41,796 bases of DNA from Ectocarpus siliculosus (taxonomy: Eukaryota > Sar > Phaeophyceae > Ectocarpales > Ectocarpaceae), in NCBI GenBank assembly GCA_000310025.1, contig FN649741.1:3199651-3241446 (forward strand). The letters run 5' to 3'. Of the stretch, positions 2,434 to 41,760 are shown one piece after another. Made by a program: the position numbers and the translations under genes. Under the pieces are notes generated by a model, which was given only the letters and a program-made list of their open reading frames with translations, was not told the origin of the DNA and did not search any database. Positions within the stretch are counted from its first letter, which is position 1, and every line of letters starts with the position of its first letter.

Positions 2434-5400
2434 GAGTCCAGATCTGTCGGAGAGAGAGACAGCGTCATCGTCATCTGCCGAGATGTATGTGACATCGACT
2501 TACGAGTGAGGTGTTGGGGTGGGGTAGGGGGTCACCCCACGCCCAAAGGAAACGACTCACCTGTTTGCTTATCGCTACAATACTGTCGATCACGCGCAAA
2601 CGATCTCGTTCCCGCTAGAAGAGTGCCGTCGTTGTCATAGAAGCTGTCATATGTTGTCAAACGTGTGTGAAGTCGAGTGTTGTGCCTCATGGGAGAGGCA
2701 CCGGGAAGTTGCTGCTGGCGCATCGATCGGTTTTGATGTGCCTGGAATGCGTGCGTGTCGTACGTTGATATCCCATTGTTCTGGAAGTTCATTTTCACAA
2801 ATCTTTCGGCGTGCTTTCGGTCGCACCAACCGGGGTCACACAGGAGGATGGTCTCATAGGATGTGTTTTCTTCCTCCCCTTTCCTGCCGCCGTGTTATTG
2901 CCTTACCCTTCTTCGTCCCGAAGACGATTCAACTGTTTCTTTCGGCCGGGAAGCCGGGTTCTTCGGACACACGAATGAATCACCATCAACCTTTACTCGG
3001 GAAAATGCAAGACCAAGACCAAACGTCGGTTCAAGTAACTGCACCGAGATTCGACTCACGCCAAACCGCCAGCGGGCTGGAAGGTTGCAAGACCACCAAC
3101 GAAACTACCGGAAGCAGTCAGCTCTCAACGGCAGGATCAAGTATTGGTGATACACCACCGTCTGTTGCTTTGAAACGCACACCGACCGTCCCGCACGAAC
3201 TGCGGGTTAGGTGCGAGAGCCTAAGATTCCTCTCAAAAAAGAGTAATGGACAGGCCGCCTATGAGCCGCGTGGAGACAAGAGATACGACTACCCGTCTCA
3301 TTCGGCACCTGAGCTCTCCACATCTTACACCCCCATTCTTTTCTCTCCTCACCCCCCCCCCCCCCTCCCCGAAGCCAAAATAGGAACACGGATAGAAACC
3401 TGACAACCCGGTCGTTCGAAGGCGTAGAGGGTCGCCCTCGTCGACCGCCTGCCCTGAAAAGCCCAACCCGAGCACGTCCAGCTTGCCATTCATTCTCGCC
3501 ACGTGCTCCAGCACCTGTAGGACGGATACCACAACAGCCTCAATCGATGTCGTCGTCATTGGCTTGGGGGCAAACATCCCGCCTGTCTCGATATCCGAGG
3601 GTCTTGCACTAGGCAACCGCTCTCCCTCCCTCCATAAATCAATCGGTGACCTCGCAATGCGGTCTCTCAAGGCAACCCTCCAGCCTCCGCACCCCCTCGC
3701 GTAGACGGCGCCAAAATTGACCCCCCGTCTCTCGAATGCGCTCTGACGGCGCCGCCCTCCCTGCCTTTCAATGCCAGCACATCCCCCCCTTCAAGAAAGC
3801 AACGCCTTAAACTACACGTGGACCTCCTTCTCAACGCCACACGATAAACCAACACACCACACCACATGTACGACATACCTGCATCGCCTCGTCGTGCCTC
3901 CCCATGACCTGCAGGAAGCGGGGGGACTCAGGAAGCAGCCGGTAGGCCACGGCCACGATCGCGGATGGAAGCGCGGCCACCCCAAGAAACCAGCGCCACA
4001 TTGCCTCTTCCTTCCTGTTGCATGCACCGTTCGTTCGAGGACTCGATTACTTCGATAGGGGAAGTGTTACGCCAGGACGTCAGCATCGCAAGGGTAAACC
4101 TCGAGCTAGAAATACTATTAGAGTTTTGTTTTTGTTAACGAGAAAGTACGTTCATAGGAGAAGAAGAAAAGCTTGCCGCAGCAAACACCGGTATACGAGG
4201 GAGTCCGTCTCTTACACAACGGTTGAACACAGATTTCTCTGTAACAAACCGAAGTCACGAATTAAGAGAGCTCCTCTGGCTTGGCACAACCCTCGATGAA
4301 CCCGTAGCCGGAAACGTACAGGGCGCGGCAGAGTTAGGCTTGACCGAGACGATGTCGGGGGCATCTACGGTATCGGACGGAGTGGAAGGGGGGGTCTAGA
4401 TGGCGGTTTGAGGGACACACACAAATGGACAACGTCACCGTAAAAGGTTTGCCTAAGTGCGCGCGCAGGGGGTGGCACGGTTTCAGTCACAACGTTCGGA
4501 AGATGTCCCACACTTACCCGGGCCCGAGAACATTGGCGAGCATGAGGCCAAGGAGGGAAGCGAAGATCATGCCGATGCCCCAGAAAATTCCAGCAGTTGC
4601 GCAGAGAATATTAGCCCTATCGTTTGTCGGCAGAAACTCGGTGACGAGCGCGGTCGTCACGGGCAAGTTACCTGCCGTCAGAGAGAAAAACGTAGGACGA
4701 CCCGGGCTACTTCTGAGTATTGTTGCGTCATACGGTACCGCTGTGTCGTCTTGAGTGCTGCCTTGGATGCGTCTGGTGGTATTACGTTCAGGCAGGTGTG
4801 TAGCCCTCGCAGCACGACGTGTGGACGCACGAGAGAGATTCCAAGCACCTGTATCGGCTGCCTGGATGAGCCTGTATCCTCATCACGCTATGGGTCGGAT
4901 GCGTGCAAAAATGCTTGGTTGGACTAGATGGAGGACATGGAGGACATGCTTTGCGGTTGCGGTTAACTGGACAGCAATGACGAAGAATGGAAAGCCGAGC
5001 GAAGTGAACGGGATGCTTAGGTACGTTTTCGGCATCTTCTGACCACTCAAATCGCCATTTGGCTCTGATTGACACTGGAATGGCGCCGGCCACGCTGCTA
5101 AGGTTGGTTTCGTTGACCGTCCTAACGCGAAAATCCCACCAGGGAGCGTGGTGTTGTGTGTGTCCCGCCCGCCTTACCTCCTACTCCGAAGCCGACGAGC
5201 ACTCGGCACAGACAGAGAACAAAAAAAGACGGTGCGAGAGAGGAGAGGACCCCGCCGACAAAGACGCAGGCCAGGGACGACACGAAGGCGGTCCTGCGGC
5301 CGCGTTTGTCGGCGTAGATGGACCAGAAACCCGCGCCGACAAGCATCCCTGCAGCGGAGAGGGACGGAAAGGTAGAGGAGACGAAAAGCGGGGTGAAAAG

Positions 5401-8400
5401 GCAAGCCACGAAGATGGTGGCGTGGGGGGGTTCTAATGCGTTTCGGTCACGTATTTAGCACAGTGTGTGCCATTTACCGTGCTGATGACGCACACACGGA
5501 ACACCTTGGAAACCCTCGGAAACGTCTGTCGCTTTGTGCGTCACTCCCTCTTGCCCTGCCTCCTGACCCCCTGTCCCCCGTACGCTCGCCCCTCTTCGCC
5601 TCACCAAAGAAACTAGCACTGCCGATTAGCCCCTTTCCGACGCTGCTCAGCTCGAACGAGGTCGCGATGGCTTCCAGCACAAACGCCAACACAAGAACTT
5701 CCATCGAATCGACCACCCAACCCTTGCAAGCAGAAAGGGATAAGAGAGAGACGGCAAGGCACGAAACGACAACAACACACAAGCAAAGGCAGAGCCGCGG
5801 GCACGCGTGGGAGAAAAAATCGTGCAGGCGGCGAATGGGAGATGTTGCATGTCGATTTTCCGCAAACGTGGGCTCCGTGCATGTCCATCCCCCCGACGAC
5901 GGTAGAAAGAAAAAAATAGACCGCACCTAAACAGACAGCCAGTCTTCCGAATAGTGAGCGGGTACGAGAGAGAGAGACACACACATACCCTGCACTGGCC
6001 AGGTGCAGCTGCCGTAGAGGCACCAAACAGTCATTCGACACACCGCTTGCACCTTTGGCGTCGTGCCACTTGTTCCTCTGCAGCAACAAGTGATGCTCGG
6101 CGAGCTTTCGGTTTGGCTCCTTCCTCTCGCGTTCTGCTATGAAGTACTGTAACTTCGAAGTACCGTCCCCTGTATTTTTTGTACGTTACGCTTGGAGCGG
6201 GCTATTTCGCTTCCGTTGCACGCGTTCTAATCTTCACCTGATCTGTGTGCGTCTGCTGCCGGCGCTACTTTGTTGATGCTTAGATATGATGCTACACACA
6301 GATCTTTAAATAGAGGGGACGTGAAAGAAAAAACAGGTTCGTTTTGTTATGCGTTCGTCTGCCTCTTCCATCAGTTCTTTCCCAGGAATACTATAAAGCA
6401 CCAACAACGACAGCCGCAAACCTATGTTCGTGTGTTCGACCTTAGTATATGCACCCTACACCCAATACAATAAAATTGGAGATGCTTTTCTATTTCCATT
6501 CTAAATCACCGACCCCCCGCCCCGGCCACGGCGCGCCCAAAATCTGGAAAAGTGGAATGCGTGTCCCGCAAGGTCCAGGGAAATGTTTTTCGCGTACTGC
6601 AGTGCCGGCTTGGCAGTAGTGAGGACTTTTCGACTTCATGGTACAGCGCTTACGTTTTGCGGGGCTGGCAAAAGGACCAAACGAACGGTATACGGATCAA
6701 TTGTGAGGTGGGCGGCGTCTCGTGAGGCTGCTAGCCTATCGAAAACACGGCTTTGATCACATCAAGAATAACTTGACCAGATACATTTGTTTGGTGCACC
6801 AGTTCACACCTCGGCGCACCCTAAGGTAGTGGTGCAGTAGACCATGCTGCCCGATCAAGGGGCACCCCGCTATCAAATGATGTATTGTTGCGGCAAGAAG
6901 GCTGTAGCACTATTTAGACAACTTCAAAGGCACCCCTCGACAACGAAATAAAGACGCTCGTCATGCACGCACTCGATGTACATTTGGAGGTACAACATGG
7001 ATGTAGTGCTCCTTACACGAGCACAACAAAAGCAGATGCAACCCAAAGGGGCGAAGAAGAAAACAAACTCGCCTGTTCCTTCGACAAAACGCTAGAGAGA
7101 AGACCAAGCCTTCAGACGCAAAAAAGACGCCAACCGAAAGACGTCAGTCTCAGTGCGGTTTAAAACAGAAAAATATATGTTTCTCAAGGCCCTGATCTGG
7201 GACCCCGTGAGAGGGTGTCATGGCGGAGGCAAAGCTATTCTGATCAAAGGCGGTGGCAACAGAGGACAACTGCTACTTAACACTTTGCACCACGGAAGGC
7301 GTCTGCGTCAGTTGGACCAGTACGGACATCATTAGAAGGTACTGAGCGGAGACCGGAATGGTTTTTAAAGTGAAGACAACAACAACAACACCAGTTCGTT
7401 TCGGAGTGAAATCATCCTCCTTGCATTTTACCACCACTACTACTCTCGTCACTAACTTTTCCACTATTTTTCGGGCGTTCATCTCCAGACTCTGCCCCCC
7501 TGCGGCGTTTGTTGTGAGGAGGGTCATCTGGCTCGAAACTCTTGTTCCCCTCAACGCCATATTTTCCACCTCCATCATCACTGCTATCCTTCGCTATTTT
7601 TTCCACATCCGTCGTCACTACCACTATGTTCCTTGTCGCCCGCCTCACTACTACTGAAATCCCAACCTATTGGCTGAATTTGCTGTGGTGGAATTTGGTC
7701 GATCTCTACACCATGACATTTGAAGACGTCATGCGTACCGACAGAAACCGAGCTATACAAGTAGCTCGAAGGTTAACCGTCTCAATCATCCTGTTGGTGT
7801 GCAAGACTTGAGGCGAAAAAAAGCTGTGTGTGGGGGTTTGTGAACCGGCACTATTGAGGGGTTCGTATCTGAACCGGCACAATAGCGGGCAACCCTCAAT
7901 AGTGGCGGTTTGGCACTATTCAGGTCTGTGTCTGCGTCAAGAAAATTTACCGGGCACTGGTGTATATAGGACTCTGGCACCAGCTGTCTGGCACTATTCA
8001 ACCGGCACTATACCGGGACACCTACTGTTGCATCCATACCGAAATGTACCTTCCTTGCCTATGTACAGTAGTACTACCGGTACACATGGAGTTTACATAC
8101 CTACTGCTGTACATACAACCAACAACGAGACAGCAACATCTGTGTGCAACAAGAGTGCAACCACACCAATTCAAAGAGCCGAGCTCCTGCAAGTGCTGCC
8201 CGAGTCGGGCACCTTGCCTTGGGCGCCAGCAGCGCAGGCTGTTGCTGGTTACGCCGTTCAAACGCGTTTTGAATTATCGTCCGACTGCCAGAACGACATT
8301 GCAGGTCTGCCACCCAGGTGGTAATTCGTGACGATGACATCGACAGCACGTGACATCGCAGCGCACGCTCACCAATCCACACATGGTGACCAGCCTCGTC

Positions 8401-8606
8401 TGAAAAGGGCCCAAACCTACGCGATCAATCGCTTCAGAGAAGCTCCTAGGCGGGTTATGGAGGGCGTCCGGACCATCATCTGCACTTGGCGCAGACGGAC
8501 GCATGAAAGGCGTATGTTCAAGCTGCTGCTCCGGTCGACGAGTTGTTGCAGTGGCGGCCTCCTCAATCTTGCTCTGAGGAAATGGCTGCCTCCGTCTGCT
8601 TTCCAT
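794..8606 (-). CDS. MFS transporter, SVOP/SV2-like (3' end missing)
   Basis: Membrane transporter of the sugar-porter-like MFS branch that includes SVOP/SV2; substrate unknown. Minus-strand exons: 8606-8373, 5722-5605, 5348-5178, 4671-4518, 4014-3879, 3514-3400, 2443-2281, 1745-1716, 903-794. All introns are GT-AG and every junction keeps phase, giving 410 residues. Residues 55-72 (SFSEAIDRVGLGPFQTRL) match the SVOP N-terminus; GWVVDSMEVLVLAF starts TM1; DKRGRR (131-136) is MFS motif A; EFLPTNDRA follows TM4; PESPR (254-258) is the sugar-porter motif after TM6; RELFHTPILRR precedes TM7. The central loop carries ten glycines (314-323) encoded by a GCC/GGC repeat. The start is the first in-frame ATG. 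TM9-12 are absent because the contig ends. Intron 1 is 2.65 kb. Family assignment is firm; substrate is not inferable. Confidence 0.93.
1716..1745 (-). other. 30-nt microexon of the MFS transporter
   Basis: The acceptor ends ACCAG and the donor is AG|GTGGGG. The exon supplies one base, nine codons (WVVWFTVNI) and two bases, joining the LSL end of the previous exon to the YFGVTFLL start of the next. The result is a continuous TM7 that aligns with the SVOP pattern LLLWF..NAFSYYG. Without it the helix would be shortened by ten residues but the frame kept, since 30 nt is a multiple of three. Confidence 0.85.
2402..2431 (-). repeat. GCC/GGC trinucleotide repeat coding for Gly10
   Basis: About ten tandem GCC units on the plus strand sit inside MFS exon 7 and are read as glycine codons on the minus strand. 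They fall in the central cytoplasmic loop between TM6 and TM7, where length change should be tolerated. Confidence 0.85.
7131..7225 (+). repeat. Dispersed repeat copy A (partner at 34862-34950)
   Basis: The core CAGTCTCAGTGCGGTT preceded by AGACG is shared with 34,87x on the same strand, followed by further matching blocks (GGCC.TGATCT.GGA and TCATGG). About 80 bp align with small gaps. This copy lies in MFS intron 1; the other lies in the coiled-coil gene region. Confidence 0.6.
7843..8011. repeat. AACCGGCACTATT hairpin repeat cluster
   Basis: Arms 7843-7860 and 7893-7910 are inverted copies of 18 bp with one mismatch (core CACTATTGAGGG / CCCTCAATAGTG) around a 32-nt centre. The centre holds another AACCGGCACAAT, and AACCGGCACTAT recurs at 8000-8011, with GGCACTATTCA in between. 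This could be a small hairpin or MITE relic. It sits in MFS intron 1. Confidence 0.6.
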
Positions 8607-9354
8607 GTTTCTCTCCCCCCCCCTCTCTCTCTCTGTGCTGTTCTGTCTCTCCTTCCCCCCTCTCCTTGGCGGTGGATGGAATAGTGGTCCCGCTCTTTTT
8701 TTCTTTCGGAGATGTACCGCCGCTCGGGGCTCCGTGTATCTCCTCCCCCGCCACCTGTCATTTCTTTTGGCCAACAAAGCCAGTATCCAGATATCCAGAT
8801 CCTTCTGTTCTGATCGGGGAGGGGGGAGGGGACCTGCCCATGCTCTTGTTTAGACGGTCAGCTTCCATTAGCATACAAACGTACCCAGTTATGGGCCAAG
8901 AAAAAAACGCGTCTGCTCATTGGGAGAGAGGCTGTACAGTCCCGAGGGCCGAAGGCTGACTTGGCTGAGCGCGGAGAAGAGTTGCGGAGGTGGTTATGGC
9001 GGCTAATGAGAAGTTTTTAAGACGGGTTGTCCATGAAGCATCGGAGATCGAAGAAGACGAGTTGTTGTCCATGTTGAGGTGAAGAAGGATATGCCGACAG
9101 CGTTGTTGGAACGAAACTCCATGGGACGATGATTCGAACCGTCTTCAGGTCTCTTTTAGACAACCAACACCAACGGTGACACGCCGGTAGTATCCATCTC
9201 ATCCATTCCAGCCACATGCCCTACGCATCCCATTGCACCTTTTGCTCTACTTCGCCTTCTGTGAGTCACTTCCCACTTCTCATTCGACGACAACCCTACT
9301 GGGGGCCTTCCACGTTACAAAGATGTACACCACTTAGTTAGGGACGCCTCGTGT
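8607..9354. other. Spacer upstream of the MFS gene, no gene seen
   Basis: Immediately upstream of the MFS start (plus 8610-8660) is a CT-rich tract, purine-rich on the gene strand, which may belong to the 5' UTR or promoter. I find no TATA box at a convincing distance and no coding signal. Confidence 0.5.
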
Positions 9355-9925: not shown

Positions 9926-10038
9926 ATCCTGTTGGAATAAGTGCCGTGCCCGATTCACACTCAATGCCTTGCACGGACTGGGTGCGGCGGGTATGTCGTA
10001 GTCCCTGCTTCGTCGACCGCGATTCTTTGTTTTTCTTC

Positions 10039-10162
10039 TCGTTTTTCTGGCGTGTCTTGCCTTACATCTTCGTTCTTGCGCGTTCCTATTCGATAGTTTC
10101 TCGTTTTCCTGGCGTGTCTTGCCTGCATCTTCGTTCTTGCGCGTTCCTTTTCGATACTTTCA
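10039..10162. repeat. 62-bp tandem duplication
   Basis: Copies 10039-10100 and 10101-10162 share TGGCGTGTCTTGCCT, ATCTTCGTTCTTGCGCGTTCC and TCGATA with only a few substitutions. The sequence is pyrimidine-rich and non-coding in appearance. Confidence 0.8.
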
Positions 10163-10265: not shown

Positions 10266-11077
10266 GTAACTGGCCGTGGGGGTGACGCTTGCCTTCGACC
10301 CTACCTACCAGAAGGTACGCGCTTCGCACCTGCTGGAAACTACCTTTCTCGCCGCCGATGAGAGAAAGGTGGTCGAACCAAACCCGGTGGGGCTACCGCG
10401 TTGTCGCCCTTACCGCCGACGAAGACGCCGTGCGCCGTGCCCTCTCCGCCACCGAGCCCCCCGCCGACACCATCGGCCTTTCTGGGTCTTCCACCAAATC
10501 CACCAAGAGAAAATCCTCCATAAATCCCCGCTATTCTTCCGACAAATCCGTGAAACGTCGTCGGGCCAACGACCGTACGATCGGCAACTCCACCAACGAC
10601 AGCGACGACGATCACTACGGCGGACGCGGCGGCGGCGCCGGGAACAACGATTCCCGCGGCGCCGACAGCAACGACGATGACGACAAAAATGACAACTACG
10701 CCAACAGCGACAACAACTACGAATACGACGACGATGTCGAAAACGACGACGACGATAACAACGCCGACGACGGCGATGACAGGGACGATTTCCTCGACGT
10801 TGGACGAACCCATTCCTGCGTCATTTCCGATGTGGGAAATGCGTATTTTTCTATCCCCGCCCCCCCCCCGGTGTTTGCCATCGGGGTTGGGCTTTCGCCG
10901 CATGGCAGCGATTTTGTAAGACAAGCCGATCACTTCGTGAGCTCGGCAACTTTTTTGTTTGCCTTTGGTTTTTTTTTCGCGGTAACCATGAATGGTGGTC
11001 GAGTAGATTTTGTTTTGCGGGGTCGAGAACCGTCACTTCGCGCAAAGGGGATGATCGCACCACGTTGTGTTACATAG
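10266..11077 (+). other. Open frame with Asp/Asn-rich tract, uncertain coding
   Basis: A plus-strand frame is open from about 10289 to 11077. Its early part (GYRVVALTADEDAVRRALSA, near 10390-10450) looks coding. It continues into a basic segment (KRKSS, KSVKRRR) and a long Asp/Asn tract encoded by an imperfect GAC/AAC repeat at about 10650-10790. The overlapping frame just upstream (GVTLAFDPTYQKVRASHLLE, 10278-10340) also looks coding, so this may be a frameshifted relic that continues the decayed block at 9355-9925. No family is recognised. Confidence 0.3.
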
Positions 11078-21293: not shown

Positions 21294-21614
21294 TGCGCAC
21301 GATGGGCGGCCCACGGGAATGCCCAAAATATGTTCACCGTGGTGGGCTCACCAGCTGCCCGAGGGTGGCGGGCAATTTAGACTTTTGCCCATGGGCCTCC
21401 CGTCGTGGGCAAAAACGAAGCCCATGAAGCGCCCACCATGAGCTGTCCAATGGCTTGCCCATACTTGTAGGCGTTTTTCATGGGTGGCCCATGGGCACCG
21501 CTATGCCCACGCTTTGCCCATGGACATGGGCTGCCCGTGGTGGGCTCACCATGGTCGGCTGTCCATGTTGGGCAATTTAGGCTTGCCCATGGGGCATGCC
21601 CATGTGTCGCCCAT
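21294..21614. repeat. GCCCATGGGC palindromic array, left part
   Basis: Dense GCCCA/TGGGC motifs with an internal tandem period of about 198-211 bp. CGTGGTGGGCTCACC occurs at 21338 and 21536, and GGGCAATTTAG followed by GCCCATGGG recurs at both. The array resumes after the transposon at 26237. Minus-strand Trp/Pro/Gly-rich frames here are products of the repeat. Confidence 0.8.
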
Positions 21615-21618
21615 CGTG
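21615..21618 (+). repeat. Target-site duplication CGTG, left copy
   Basis: CGTG directly abuts the left terminal inverted repeat and recurs at 26233-26236 after the right one. In the neighbouring uninterrupted unit of the same array, CGTG occurs once (21404-21407) followed by GGCAAAAACG. The right flank of the transposon continues as CGTG then GTCAAAAACG, so that unit serves as an empty site. Confidence 0.75.
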
Positions 21619-21644
21619 GGCGGGTTCCGCGGTCAAGACGAATT
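21619..21644 (+). repeat. Left terminal inverted repeat of the transposon
   Basis: Begins GGCGGGTTCCGCGGT and ends CGAATT. Compared with the reverse complement of 26207-26232 it differs at two positions (the 16th and 20th). Confidence 0.85.
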
Positions 21645-21900
21645 GGGTCTCCCGCGGCGAAAAAAACTTTTTTCAAAAAAACGCTTTTGGTTCTAAGTCT
21701 AAAACGACGTTTCAGCGCATAGAAAAAAGAGAAATAAAAAAAAATCAGTTCGGATCATGCCGAACTTTTTTTTTCGGCGCATTCCCGATCTCGCCGCCTC
21801 CATTTCTCCTCGGCAATCGACTCCGCTTGGCCGATTTAGGGGGGGTAGAGCCACTCAGAAAGTTGGTCTGACCAAAAGTGGCCGCGGGAGGGGGCCATAT

Positions 21901-24900
21901 ATGAGTGGGGCTGGGGCTGGAGCTGGCATCCCAGCGGGCAACTGCATCCGCATCGTACCGCTGGGAGACAAGCAGTGGAAAGTAACGCACCAATGGGTTC
22001 CACACGACCTAGGCCTCAAGCTCACCACCAAGCTGATGGACCAGCGGAAGGATACCCGCGTTGTCGTACAGCTTGTGGCCTACCCCAAGGATGACGAGGA
22101 TGCCTTATGCTCGAAAGCTAGGGAAAAGGCCGAGGAAATCTTGAAGACGAGAAGGGACAGATACGAAAAAACACTGCAGCCTAGCAGCGGCGTGCGAAGA
22201 TGCGGCAACACCGGCAGGAGGGCAGACAGCGAGATGAGCTGTCCAGTGAGAGCGGCGTTGCCGCGGAAGACTCGTGCTGGCGTTACAAGGCCGACTGCTC
22301 CCGATCGCCCCCCTGAGGAAGAGGTAAGAATCTGCTGCTGCTGGGTGCTGCTGGGTCTGTCTGCTGTCTTTCTCTCGCTATCCCCTCTTGAACCCCTCTC
22401 CTCTTCTGTTGTACTAGATGAAAAAACAACAACCTTGAGGGTACTGCTGTATGGGAAAACAAAACTGAAAGGTTGCCTGCATGTACTGGTACCACCTTTG
22501 GTTGTAGACTGCTGTCTGCTCTCTTTACCGTAGATGCCTGCCGACTGCTGAAGGTAACAACGAGTGTTCGCTGTGATGCGAGACTTCTTCTCTACCTCCA
22601 GAGTTGTGGATTGCTCTCGCTCGATGCGTTGTATGCCACCACTGGCGCAACTTCCGATTGCTGTCTACGGCGAGTGTACATTTGGTATTCGCATCGAAGT
22701 AAAAATTGAATCACAGGCTTTCATTCTTGATTTCTTCTGCTGCTACCCCAGCGCTGACGTTTCCAAATGCCCCCACTGCTGTACGTTGCACTTGACCCAC
22801 CCTGCCGCTCAAACCTTCCAGCCACCAGAGCAATTCGAGTGGAGTGACACCTCGCCAGCATTCGTGGCGGCCATGAGAGCGATGACCACAACAGAGTTGT
22901 TGCGGTGTCTGGCAGAGCTCAAGGTGCCCGCCGCTGACAAGCTTCGAGAGCAGCTGGAGGAAGCGAGGGAGCTCCAATCGGCATGTCGTAGAGCCTTAAA
23001 GGATGCCGCAATCCAAGGGCGAACCAAAGAGGGAAGGAGAACGTTCCAGACGTTGCTCACGGCTGTTGCGTACGATGGAGACGGGCCTTCGAAGGTGACA
23101 GCCAAGCGCAAGTCCGAGATCTTTGGCGTTCACCCAGAGCACCTCGTCGTCGCCCGACGGCGGGTGACAGCGCTGAGGCCTGAGCTCCCTCCACTTCAGG
23201 CAATCGACGAGAAGGCGTACTACTTCCACTCCCGGACCAAGAGGAGCGACGCAACCCCTCCAGAAATGCTGGAGCTCATGGGAACATTCTGGCACACCGA
23301 CGAGGTATCTCGTGCATCGGGGAACTCCAAGGACATCTGGCGGGAATCCAAGTCGCCCAGTGCGAAAGGACACCCTCGTCGGCAGCTCATCGTGGAGGGA
23401 CAGGGTGAGGCAGTCTACGAAAAGTTCTTGGTGTGGCCAGGTTGGATCAACTTCAAGAGGGGTCTGGAAGGAGGAGAACGGCGAGGTCCTGGCGGACCCC
23501 GGCCGCACTCTGTTCCTCTCGACGCGGTGCAGGTGCTTGACTTCCCCGAAGACAGACCAGTGCGCGTGCAAGATCCACACGCAGCAAACTTATTACCTGG
23601 CTGCGCTTCGTGAGGTTGACGTGCAGGGGCGTGACGCGTGCAACTGTCGGTGGTGCAGCGTGGAGAATGGAGGCTCCGAGTGGAAGAAGATGTGGTCGAA
23701 CCTTGGGTCTTTCTCGGAAGCCATCGCGTGCCCAAAGGTTGACCTGCGAGCTGGGGACCCCGACGCCACGGGTGAGTTCATGGGGCGGAAGCCGGAATGC
23801 GGTTCTTCGGACTGTGAGGTCTGTGGGTTCGGGCGGGAGGGGGGCATTCCCACGTGCAAGGCACTGGAGGAGTCTCAGCAGCTGGTGGAGTGGACGCGCT
23901 ACGAAGATCTAGACAGGGAGGGGAAGAAACCGCTGCCGAACCAACTAGTGACCAAGGAGGGCAAGCTCTGCGATCTTTGGAGGGATTTCAAGCAGCACAG
24001 CAAGGTGTACATGGATCACCACACGAAGGCCATGTGGGGGAGGAACTGCCACAGGGAGGACATGTACACGTTCCCAAACGGCGACCTGGTTATTGAGGTG
24101 GACTTCATCGAGAAGTTCGAACATGTCCCTCCATCCGTTCTGACGTGTGCGAGACACGAATCGACCACCCTCATGGTCGCAGTGGTACACTTCAGCCCGC
24201 AAGTGTTGGAAGGCGGCGGCAGGGTGCACCTCACCGAGACATGGATCTTTGCTTCCGAAGACCCTCGCCACGACTTCGACTTCCACCTCCATGGGATGCG
24301 TCAAATCGCCGATCACTACCTTGACGGAGACGGAAGCGCAGCAACTGCGGCCGCTCGAGAGGAGAAGCGGACGCCCCGCATGCACATTTTCACGGACGGC
24401 TGCGCCAAGCAATACAAGGGCAAGCGGAACTTTCGGTTTCTGTCAAACAGCGTGCGGCAGCTCGGCTACATCGTCGAGCACCATTTCGCGGTTACGTCTC
24501 ACTTCAAAGGCAGCCACGACGGCATCGGCGCCATAGCCAAGGGTGCCATGAAGAGAGAGGTGCTCAGGCCAGGGGGTAAGCTCATCACCGGCGCGGCCGG
24601 CGTGGTGAACTTCTTGGCCGAGTACTTCAAGAGCATCGGAGACAGGACGCTAGCTGACTTCTTCGCCTCGTGGACGCCGTATCGCATTCGACGTGTGTAT
24701 GTGAAGCTCGTCGGACCAACGGAGATCTATCGGCCGGAGCCGGTCCTGAAGGGGATTAAAGGTACGCGGGACACTTACGTCTTCATCGGGGCGAACACGG
24801 CGAGAGACGCTTCCACTACCACCGGGCTCAGCGGAAACTCACGCATTCCAGACGTCATGAAGAAGGATTGGGAGTTGGCGAGGGGAACGGAGACGGGGAA

Positions 24901-25709
24901 GGTGGCGGGAACGGAAATGGTTGTGCTCACGGCGAGGAAGGTTGGGGAGGAGGAAGAGGGCAGCGTGCCCGAAGAGGGAGGGGCGGGGGGTGCAGGGGGC
25001 GGGGCGGGCGGCACCAGGAAGGGTAAGAGGAAGCGTTCAGGGAGGCAAGGCGCCCTCCGTGGCGAGCAAGAAGAGGAGGGGCGGGCGGCAGAGGCGGGGG
25101 GCGGTTCTGACGGCATCAGGAGGAGCAAGAGGACGACCGCAGTGAGTGTGAGGCATATCGCCCTCCTTGGCGGGAACTTGAAGGGCGGGGGCGGGGGGGG
25201 CTAGAGCGAGCAGCGAGGAAGAGTCGTCGGAGGAGTCCGAAGAGGAAGAAAGTTCCGAGAATGAGGAGGACGACGAGGACGACAAGGACGACGAGCACGA
25301 CGAGGGGGAGGGGGAGGGGGAGGGGGAGGAAGAGGAGGGCGGGGAGGAGGGGGGGGAGGAAGGTCCGACTCTGGCGAAAGAGACGGTTTGTGTCGAGAAG
25401 GTGGTTCTCCGGCACAAACTGCACACCGGTTCGGCCTCTTGTTTTTGCTCTGCCTGTCGCGTGCATGAGTACGAGCGGTGCTATACCAGGAGCAAGTACC
25501 CGGCCTGCGGCACGAAGCTCGAAGAGCAGGTAGTAGAGGAGACAGTCATCATGGTCACTGGTGTAGATCCTGTGGTTGGGGTGGATCCTGTGGTCGGGAG
25601 CAAAAAGAAGGCGAAGAAAATTGTTTTCCGGAAGGGGGCGACCACCTGCCAGATGGACAGGGTTACCGGTACACAGTTTGGGGTCTCATTCTGCGGTAGC
25701 AGCAAGTAG
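21901..25709 (+). CDS. DDE-type transposase, one intron, two frameshifts
   Basis: Probable cut-and-paste transposase of about 1,100 residues. Exon 1 is 21901-22323 (ATG to donor GAG|GTAAGA); exon 2 starts at 22822 after CTTCCAG, phase 0. The frame then shifts in a G4 run at 23459-23462 and again in a G8 run at 25193-25200, and ends at TAG 25707-25709. Order of parts: basic N-terminus; TFWHTDEVSRASGNSKDIW near 23285-23340; Cys-rich zinc-type clusters (RCRCLTSP..QCACKIH, CNCRWC, CEVCGFG); RNase-H-like core. Candidate acidic residues are Asp at 24101 (EVDFIEKF), Asp at 24395 (IFTDGCAKQYKGKRNF) and Asp at 24518 (SHDGIGAIAKGAMKRE). An Asp/Glu-rich tail and a final Cys cluster (CFCSACRVHEYERC) follow. 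Homopolymer sequencing error is as likely as true decay. An alternative start is ATG 21757. Confidence 0.8.
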
Positions 25710-25997
25710 ATATTATTGAGGGGCTGGGTGATGGTGCGTTCAAATCTTGGTTTGCATTTTTGCTGTATTTTGTGGAGATAAGCGCGTGGTTTGGTGGAGA
25801 TTGTGCGTGTTGCGACTTGTAAACTTGCAGTTTTTCTGTTGTGCTTCAATCGGCGGCGGCGAGAAAAGTGTAACGTACAACACCCATCATAACTTTGTTC
25901 AGAACGCGAGAAAAACAAATCCAACGACGGATTCGTGATCCCCGCCCCAAAATTGACAAACCCTGAATTTTTCAGATCGATCTGACGATTTTTCAAA

Positions 25998-26026
25998 ACC
26001 GGGGATATTTTGGCATCATCCCCGGT
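25998..26026 (+). terminator. Hairpin in transposon 3' region
   Basis: A perfect 9-bp stem ACCGGGGAT / ATCCCCGGT with an 11-nt loop lies about 290 nt after the transposase stop. Just before it is the palindrome TCAGATCGATCTGA (25972-25985). It may be an RNA 3'-end or subterminal transposase-binding structure; its role is not known. Confidence 0.35.
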
Positions 26027-26206
26027 CTGTGCGTTTTCGCAAATTGGCGAGCGAAAAAGAGCATAATCTATTGAAACCCGGCCACTACCATCGAGTTTGT
26101 TTTTAAAATTTTGCATATCATCATAAGTATGACATAGGATCATTGTATTTAATTTTCAAATGTTGGGGAGGGGATGGTCACAATCCGTCCCCCCCCCCCC
26201 CAAATA

Positions 26207-26232
26207 AATTCGGCTTTACCGCGGAACCCGCC
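26207..26232 (-). repeat. Right terminal inverted repeat of the transposon
   Basis: Reverse complement begins GGCGGGTTCCGCGGT, matching the left end at 24 of 26 positions. A C14 run lies just inside it (26188-26201). The second CGTG target duplication follows at 26233-26236. Confidence 0.85.
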
Positions 26233-26236
26233 CGTG

Positions 26237-26428
26237 GTCAAAAACGCAGCCCTGGAGTGCCTTCCATGAGCTGCCCATGGGCTTGCCCATAGATAGGCGT
26301 TTTTCATGGGCAGCTCATGGGCTGGCTGTCCATGAGCAAGCGGTCCCCATCGGCAAATTGGCATTTCGGCGCCCAAGAGGGCGCAACGTTGTGCCCATGA
26401 GCAGCCCATGGGCTGCCCATGTCGTCGC
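26237..26428. repeat. GCCCATGGGC palindromic array, right part
   Basis: Continues the interrupted array in direct orientation. It matches 21408-21500 through CAAAAACG, ATGAGCTG, GGCTTGCCCATA and TAGGCGTTTTTCATGGG. The outer right end (reverse complement GCGACGACATGGGCAGCCCA) is an imperfect inverted copy of the outer left end at 21294 (GCGCACGATGGGCGGCCCA). The host element may therefore itself have terminal inverted repeats, about 520 bp when the insertion is removed. Confidence 0.7.
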
Positions 26429-31300: not shown

Positions 31301-32291
31301 TTTTTTTCAGGGCACGGATCTCCAAAGAAATACAGCGATTTACCATTCTAAACCTCTGCATTCACTCTACATTGGGCCACAAGGTCCTCGTTCGACCGAA
31401 ACTGAAGGCAGAAAATACAAAAACTGCTTGGATTCATGCTGCCAACTCATAAAGTGGCGGGGCGGTCCTGTACATACTTATTGCGTGCAACGCAGCGGAT
31501 GCCCGATTTATGGCGCGCGTGGTCCGTCGCGAGAATGGTTACACACTCCCGGGGCACGTACACCGCTTCGCGACAGAGGCACACGATCGGCACGGTAGCA
31601 TTTTTCCCGCTAAGGCGACGAATGCTAGTGTCAACAAGAAAGCTCCACACACCAAGAAAAAACGAGTTGATGGCTAGCGAAAATGAAAGAGTGGTCGCTT
31701 CGCTTATCTTAAGTGACCTGATGCACAAAAAGCGCGTCCACCACCACCACCACTACCACACGCGGCAACACAGCTGGGAAAAATACAGATACACATCTCG
31801 CGGCGTCCTTGCCCTCTTCGTGTTCCAAGATGAACACATACATCTGCATGACACATGCGTGCCACAACCAACCAGTAGAAGGATTCTCGTTTCGCAAGCA
31901 AGGGACCGAGGTGGCACATGGCAAGGTGGGGGCGGGCGGTACCGAGGCCGCTCACTGCACCACCACCACACCCAGCAATCACTCACGTGGCGGCAAGAAC
32001 TAAACAGGAGCATCATAGCACGTCCTACTCCCGGAACGAACGCAAGAATGCCGGTTGAGACAGAACAAAAAAAAGCCGCTCAAATAACCAGCTCTCGATC
32101 CTTTCGTTAGCTCTCTCTCTCTCGAGCCTGGAACAGAAACCCGGCGATACAAATCCGCCAGGCACGGTTCAAGGCTTCGCTTCGTTCACGACCCGAGGGA
32201 GTTCCACCCGCCGCCGCGGTTGGCGTGCTGCATGGATGCATCAGGTACAAGTCTGCACATCATCTTGTACCCGTCCCGTCGTTTCGTGGTG

Positions 32292-37511: not shown

Positions 37512-41760
<4,249 letters not shown>

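Follow-up and report, generated by a model that had tools for sequence, protein, structure and literature searches.

The window analysed here is a 41,796 nt stretch of the nuclear genome of the brown alga Ectocarpus siliculosus (contig FN649741.1, positions 3,199,651–3,241,446 of the forward strand; C16:3199651-3241446 in the genome searched, which comprises 189 Mb in 492 contigs). A search of this genome for the EsV-1-7 domain (PF19114), in which 150 of 880 initial candidates were scored, gave at least 150 matches, with every listed row above the cut-off of the family, whereas 0 of 14 control genomes gave any. This domain is reported to have multiplied in brown algae and to be otherwise known mostly from giant viruses (PMC12477816), in agreement with a brown-algal host. 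A 4,614 bp element in this window is read here as a cut-and-paste DNA transposon that has multiplied recently and most probably represents a Sola family. The element is real and well-defined, and looks like an ordinary family of a known kind and not a new kind. The family is fully delimited and very young, with at least one two-ended copy that has an open transposase frame (on C19) and with short non-autonomous relatives. With ends fixed to the base, a target preference and several empty sites, the family is well suited to tests of Sola-type transposition, and the same features help annotators recognise its relatives.

Ends, target site and empty site of the element

The element is flanked by two copies of CGTG. 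The left junction is CGTG followed by GGCGGGTTCCGCGG (positions 21615–21632) and the right junction is CCGCGGAACCCGCC followed by CGTG (positions 26219–26236). Both ends can be placed without ambiguity, since copies differ in the bases that precede the element. The original prediction had placed the ends at 21619 and 26232 with a 4 bp duplication exact to the base, and the other insertions and the empty sites bear this out. It had also quoted a terminal inverted repeat (TIR) of 14 bp; the repeat is present at the element ends, but the quoted length is too short, as the TIRs measure 26 bp and are identical at 24 of the 26 positions.

A perfect 4 bp target-site duplication (TSD) is found in 10/11 two-ended insertions: in all five full, near-identical copies, in one copy with a deletion and in four of the short non-autonomous elements. 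The six longer insertions have CGTG, TGTG, CGAT, AGCT, GTGA and TGTA, all perfect, and four of the five short elements have perfect TSDs (CTCG, TGTA, TCTG and CTAA). The ten perfect TSDs comprise nine different sequences. No copy with a different duplication length was recognised, and the young copies showed neither other ends nor another TSD length. The count of 11 leaves out L044, L045, L046, L051, L055, L058 and L087, which have no readable second end, as well as TIR words with one mismatch. The right end of L056 was found by asking for a TSD and has one extra base, so that this insertion is weaker than the others.

The bases that flank the TSDs are biased. At the 11 two-ended insertions, C precedes the left TSD in eight and G follows the right TSD in ten (p 7e-6 with one side per insertion). 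When half-sites are compared, C is beside the TSD in 17/21 (p 2.5e-7), or in 23/29 with later half-sites added (p 3.5e-9), and A is the commonest next base outward (12/21). Within the TSD of the 21 half-sites the second base is mostly G and the third mostly C, with the inner positions counted twice for two-ended copies, since both half-sites share one TSD. The insertion target is therefore a loose palindrome, RC|NRYN|GY.

The element interrupts a repeat, and an adjacent repeat unit represents the empty site. As had been proposed, CGTG is single in the adjacent unit (positions 21404–21407) and is followed by GGCAAAAACG, and to the right of the element CGTG is followed by GTCAAAAACG. Alignment of positions 21337–21496 with the joined flanks (21535–21618 plus 26237–26322, with one CGTG) gives a score of 120, against 24 for the highest-scoring of 200 mononucleotide shuffles and 89 for the right flank alone. 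A control with the left flank alone (score 102) is void because the compared stretches have 51 window bases in common.

The repeat had been described as a tandem array. The adjacent alignable unit is real, but Tandem Repeats Finder shows no array of ~160–200 bp units there. A genome search with the joined flanks shows that the two adjoining units are diverged neighbouring copies (73% identity) of a dispersed repeat. The search gave ten rows: the two flanks themselves, six that cross the junction and two of the right side only. Besides the adjacent unit, the junction is crossed by copies on C24, C12, C25, C2 and C7, and the interrupted repeat is therefore dispersed; the five dispersed junction-spanning copies have 76–80% identity. 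Multiple alignment shows that all six units are uninterrupted, and the 4 bp site is single in each (CGTG in four, CATG in one and CGCG in one).

The locus is repetitive and rich in CCCATGGGC, and short matches are common there. Nevertheless, it is exceedingly improbable that a CGTG-rich repeat produced the duplication and the empty site by chance: perfect TSDs of nine different sequences accompany 10/11 two-ended insertions, and six uninterrupted repeat units span the junction. As an observation on the repeat itself, positions 21337–21618 and 26237–26322 of the window are rich in CCCATGGGC-like words, and at least five other junction-spanning copies are present.

Copies in the genome and their age

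DNA from the left end of the element matched 12 places in the genome, eight of these at 99–100% identity, and DNA from the right end gave 13 rows, ten at 99–100%. When both ends are pooled there are 11 near-identical loci, on C2, C3, C5, C12, C16, C19, C20, C21, C24, C48 and C434. Both ends are readable in five of these, i.e., the window copy (C16) and the copies on C2, C19, C24 and C48, and the latter four are 99.87–99.94% identical to the window copy. In the C5 copy (L045, near 4902) other sequence has replaced the final 10 bp at the right terminus, and the transposase frame is open. The C12 copy (L044) has an altered left tip and a run of N, the C21 copy (L046) enters assembly N, N lie to the left of the right ends on C3 (L051) and C20 (L055), and the C434 copy (L058) sits at a contig start. 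Gene capture in the C12 copy and a 3' truncation of the C21 copy were both rejected, as in each case the sequence enters assembly N.

Six full or nearly full 4.6 kb copies show a total of eight substitutions, each in a single copy, or ~0.03% per copy; the family has therefore been amplified very recently. The alignment used for the age has seven copies, of which L046 is left out of the substitution count. One-base indels among the copies, some in homopolymer runs, may represent assembly errors.

More diverged members are also present. A two-ended insertion on C17 (L043, 339–3387) has an internal deletion that leaves 3,049 bp; its TSD is TGTA, and its main pieces are 92% and 95% identical to the window element. 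Short elements of 852–900 bp on C21, C24 and C23 (L047, L048 and L049) are two-ended with similar TIRs and have no room for a transposase gene; their left 250–280 bp are 74–82% identical to the window element. Three other short relatives are listed in Table 1. The original prediction had proposed a genome search with the TIR; TIR words with 0–1 mismatch number 164, compared with 113 in a reversed control. For the exact TIR words at L050, L052, L053, L054 and L057, no right end with a matching TSD occurs within the stretch examined.

The predicted transposase and comparison with Sola

The predicted transposase is ~1,100 aa, would be encoded by two exons and appears to comprise an N-terminal region, a Cys-rich region that may bind zinc, and a D-D-D catalytic domain. 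Exon 2 of the window copy is frame-shifted twice, near 23459 and near 25193, both in G runs. Open frames of 1,049 codons on C19 and C5 contain the full 961 aa exon-2 product, and other copies have their own breaks. The C19 copy has both ends plus the open frame. When 246 of the 961 codons are compared between C19 and the diverged copy on C17 (nine synonymous and nine non-synonymous changes), the ratio of non-synonymous to synonymous substitution rates (dN/dS) is 0.31 (Fisher p 0.02), a modest sign that the protein has been under selection in the past.

The three candidate catalytic Asp residues of the window copy have the spacing D-97-D-40-D, as calculated from the codon positions. They are invariant in a three-sequence alignment (A1) with two distant proteins of the same genome that show 25–27% identity. 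Overall, all three are conserved in three distant relatives from this genome and the third D in four, C27 adding all motifs and C30 the third D; conservation of the first D is read from the L040 row of A1 and from the C27 row. The distant relatives are found on C18 and C456 (broken), with those of a second lineage on C15 (two), C463/C90, C98/C27 and C30. The second lineage retrieves the window family at E about 1e-8. The DDD transposase-like genes of this distant lineage are L073, L075, L084 and L085, mostly as similar pairs.

In the proposed mechanism the transposase would bind the 26 bp inverted repeats and excise the element, and would then join it to a target with a 4 bp stagger at the loosely palindromic RC|NRYN|GY. 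Gap repair after insertion would yield the 4 bp repeats. The window copy's transposase is frame-shifted, and the present mobility of this copy would therefore depend on transposase supplied by another one.

Membership in Sola is most probable on the basis of anatomy, the element being set beside Sola by published description and not by homology to a curated Sola protein. A plant transposable element guide (PMC10741241) describes Sola as having a DDD transposase, 4 bp TSDs, TIRs of 11–1124 bp and sizes mostly of 2–9 kb. The window element is similar in its 4 bp TSD, in a 26 bp TIR and a 4,614 bp length that lie within these ranges, and in a transposase that by conservation is D-D-D and not D-D-E (D codons 24101, 24395 and 24518). 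The Sola-type assignment of the original prediction is supported indirectly by this fit; Pfam and NCBIfam yielded no matching transposase model, and no transposase of another superfamily was recognised with these libraries.

A DDD/E transposon with TIRs from another known superfamily able to leave 4 bp duplications (Ginger, Academ, or a piggyBac- or Kolobok-like element) is an unlikely source of the element. The Sola assignment is made by anatomy, and the third residue is read as D by conservation only, with an E two residues further on in relatives. A 4 bp duplication is also not unique to Sola. On the other hand, piggyBac and Kolobok duplicate TTAA, which is found in 0/10 insertions with a perfect TSD. 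The hAT, MULE, Harbinger, Tc1/mariner, piggyBac, Ginger and other superfamilies have Pfam models, and no transposase or integrase domain of any of these was listed at E up to 1. The lists for both Pfam and NCBIfam hold no transposase or integrase model at the limit of E 1.

Sola1, Sola2 and Sola3 were reportedly described by Bao et al. 2009. The Sola groups have low mutual similarity, and the lack of recognition of the window family is therefore unsurprising. This bears on an unlikely proposal, namely a lineage outside Sola1–3, either a fourth group of Sola or a superfamily of its own, with D-D-D, the upstream Cys-rich region and the 4 bp stagger at RC|NRYN|GY, seen only in this genome among the searches made. 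The libraries used (Pfam and NCBIfam) recognised no named family, the target is unlike the AT-rich duplications of dictyostelid Sola2 (PMC3627910), and the TIR string was not found in the literature text searched (main texts, without supplements). However, the general anatomy agrees with the published Sola description (PMC10741241), and the literature treats the groups of Sola as separate subgroups within a single superfamily (PMC4455052).

The preferred assignment to Sola can be compared with two sets of published Sola families. The dictyostelid Sola2-Fanzor1 elements have short TIRs, carry a Fanzor1 gene and are flanked by AT-rich TSDs of 4 bp such as AWWT (PMC3627910). Short TIRs and 4 bp TSDs are also present in the window family, but no second gene was recognised by Pfam in the window frames scanned. 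The AT-rich TSD is reported for dictyostelid Sola2 families and, in the text cited, is not shown as defining Sola2. As the TSDs here are mostly unlike those of dictyostelid Sola2, no Sola group (1, 2 or 3) is assigned.

The second set is from Ectocarpus sp. 7, where Sola-2 is represented by one family with 48 copies, 14 of these intact (PMC12477816, Table 1). When compared by description only, this is a low-copy, partly intact brown-alga family, as here. DNA transposons are abundant in the brown-algal lineage, and 51 DNA families of this well-studied species are unclassified (same table); the window element may be the Ectocarpus Sola-2 family or one of these 51. Sola-1 of Ectocarpus sp. 7 is one giant family of 21.5 kb with a ParB/methyltransferase gene (PMC12477816), and in the present genome neither of the corresponding domains was found, at limits of E 1 for PF02195 and E 0.01 for PF01555. 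The species may thus differ from Ectocarpus sp. 7, or the gene may have escaped detection. The portions of PMC5199201 and PMC10294476 consulted contain no Sola sequence or target rule for comparison.

Several results weigh against the assignment to Sola or against parts of the model. With Pfam, NCBIfam and PDB as the libraries compared, no sequence or profile match to a named Sola element is shown. The 961 aa exon-2 protein (P0001) and four window frames gave no transposase or integrase model in Pfam or NCBIfam (limit E 1, with filters that drop most matches above about 0.1), and the weak rows are of unrelated families. A PDB sequence search with the transposase gave one insignificant row (E 0.65). 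Three pattern scans of viral contigs gave, respectively, no pattern match, 238 matches with none confirmed and two with none confirmed; prokaryote genomes gave 115 pattern matches, none confirmed, and phages and plasmids gave no relative. These contig scans were seeded by short peptide patterns, which distant relatives can escape. An AlphaFold model of the window's own 462 aa frame, from the single sequence, has a predicted local distance difference test (pLDDT) value of 31.7, and an RNase H fold is therefore without support from the model.

Other points concern the catalytic residues and the target. The relatives have E two residues past the third D (SDSEG, SDAEG), so that taking the third catalytic residue to be D and not E is an interpretation, although this E is missing from the window family; in addition, the C30 relative does not have the second-D motif. 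Most TSDs contain G or C, unlike the AT-rich TSDs of dictyostelid Sola2 (PMC3627910). The old, 74%-identical, two-ended L086 has unequal flanks, TCAG at the left and CTAG at the right; mutation in an old copy is one explanation. L056 departs from RC|NRYN|GY, with T before the TSD and C after it. The transcript and the transposition reaction are predictions from the DNA sequence.

Feature coordinates and other features of the window

Table 1. Positions of the element, its parts, the interrupted repeat (window coordinates) and short relatives (coordinates of the named loci)
Feature	Position	Strand	Remarks
Transposon	21619..26232	+	4,614 bp; four further full two-ended copies at 99.87–99.94% identity
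Left TSD, CGTG	21615..21618	.	alignment and comparison of insertions
Right TSD, CGTG	26233..26236	.	alignment and comparison of insertions
Left TIR, 26 bp	21619..21644	+	24/26 identical to right TIR
Right TIR, 26 bp	26207..26232	-	24/26 identical to left TIR
Predicted transposase exon 1, 141 codons	21901..22323	+	donor GTAAGA follows; splice model from sequence
Predicted transposase exon 2	22822..25709	+	begins after acceptor in same phase as exon 1 donor
Cys-rich region upstream of catalytic domain	23534..23857	+	similar Cys spacing in L069 and L073; read by eye, C15 row left out
Candidate catalytic Asp 1 (VDFIEK)	24101..24103	+	conservation
Candidate catalytic Asp 2 (FTDGCA)	24395..24397	+	conservation
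Candidate catalytic Asp 3 (SHDGIG)	24518..24520	+	conservation
Uninterrupted adjacent repeat unit (empty-site paralogue)	21337..21496	.	single CGTG at 21404–21407; alignment with five further empty copies
Interrupted repeat unit, left part	21535..21614	.	pairwise and multiple alignment
Interrupted repeat unit, right part	26237..26322	.	pairwise and multiple alignment
Short non-autonomous elements	L047 406-1305; L048 388-1244; L049 304-1155	L047 on reverse complement	83–86% alike, perfect 4 bp TSDs
Short relative L056	290-906 (C26 near 5.99 Mb)		617 bp; both ends, TSD CTAA
Short relative L086	112-966 (C26 near 4.86 Mb)		855 bp; both ends; 74% identical to C24 short element
Short relative L087	from 118 (C2)	on reverse complement	left end only

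Outside the element, open frames of at least 190 aa are located at positions 2528–3403, 5613–6185, 8274–8849, 10286–11077, 10340–11032, 31406–32110 and 40818–41732 of the window; these seven frames gave no Pfam match at E 0.01. The window also has a 61 bp tandem duplication at positions 10036–10161, a 150 bp TC run at 41309–41458 and a 25 bp G run at 265–289.

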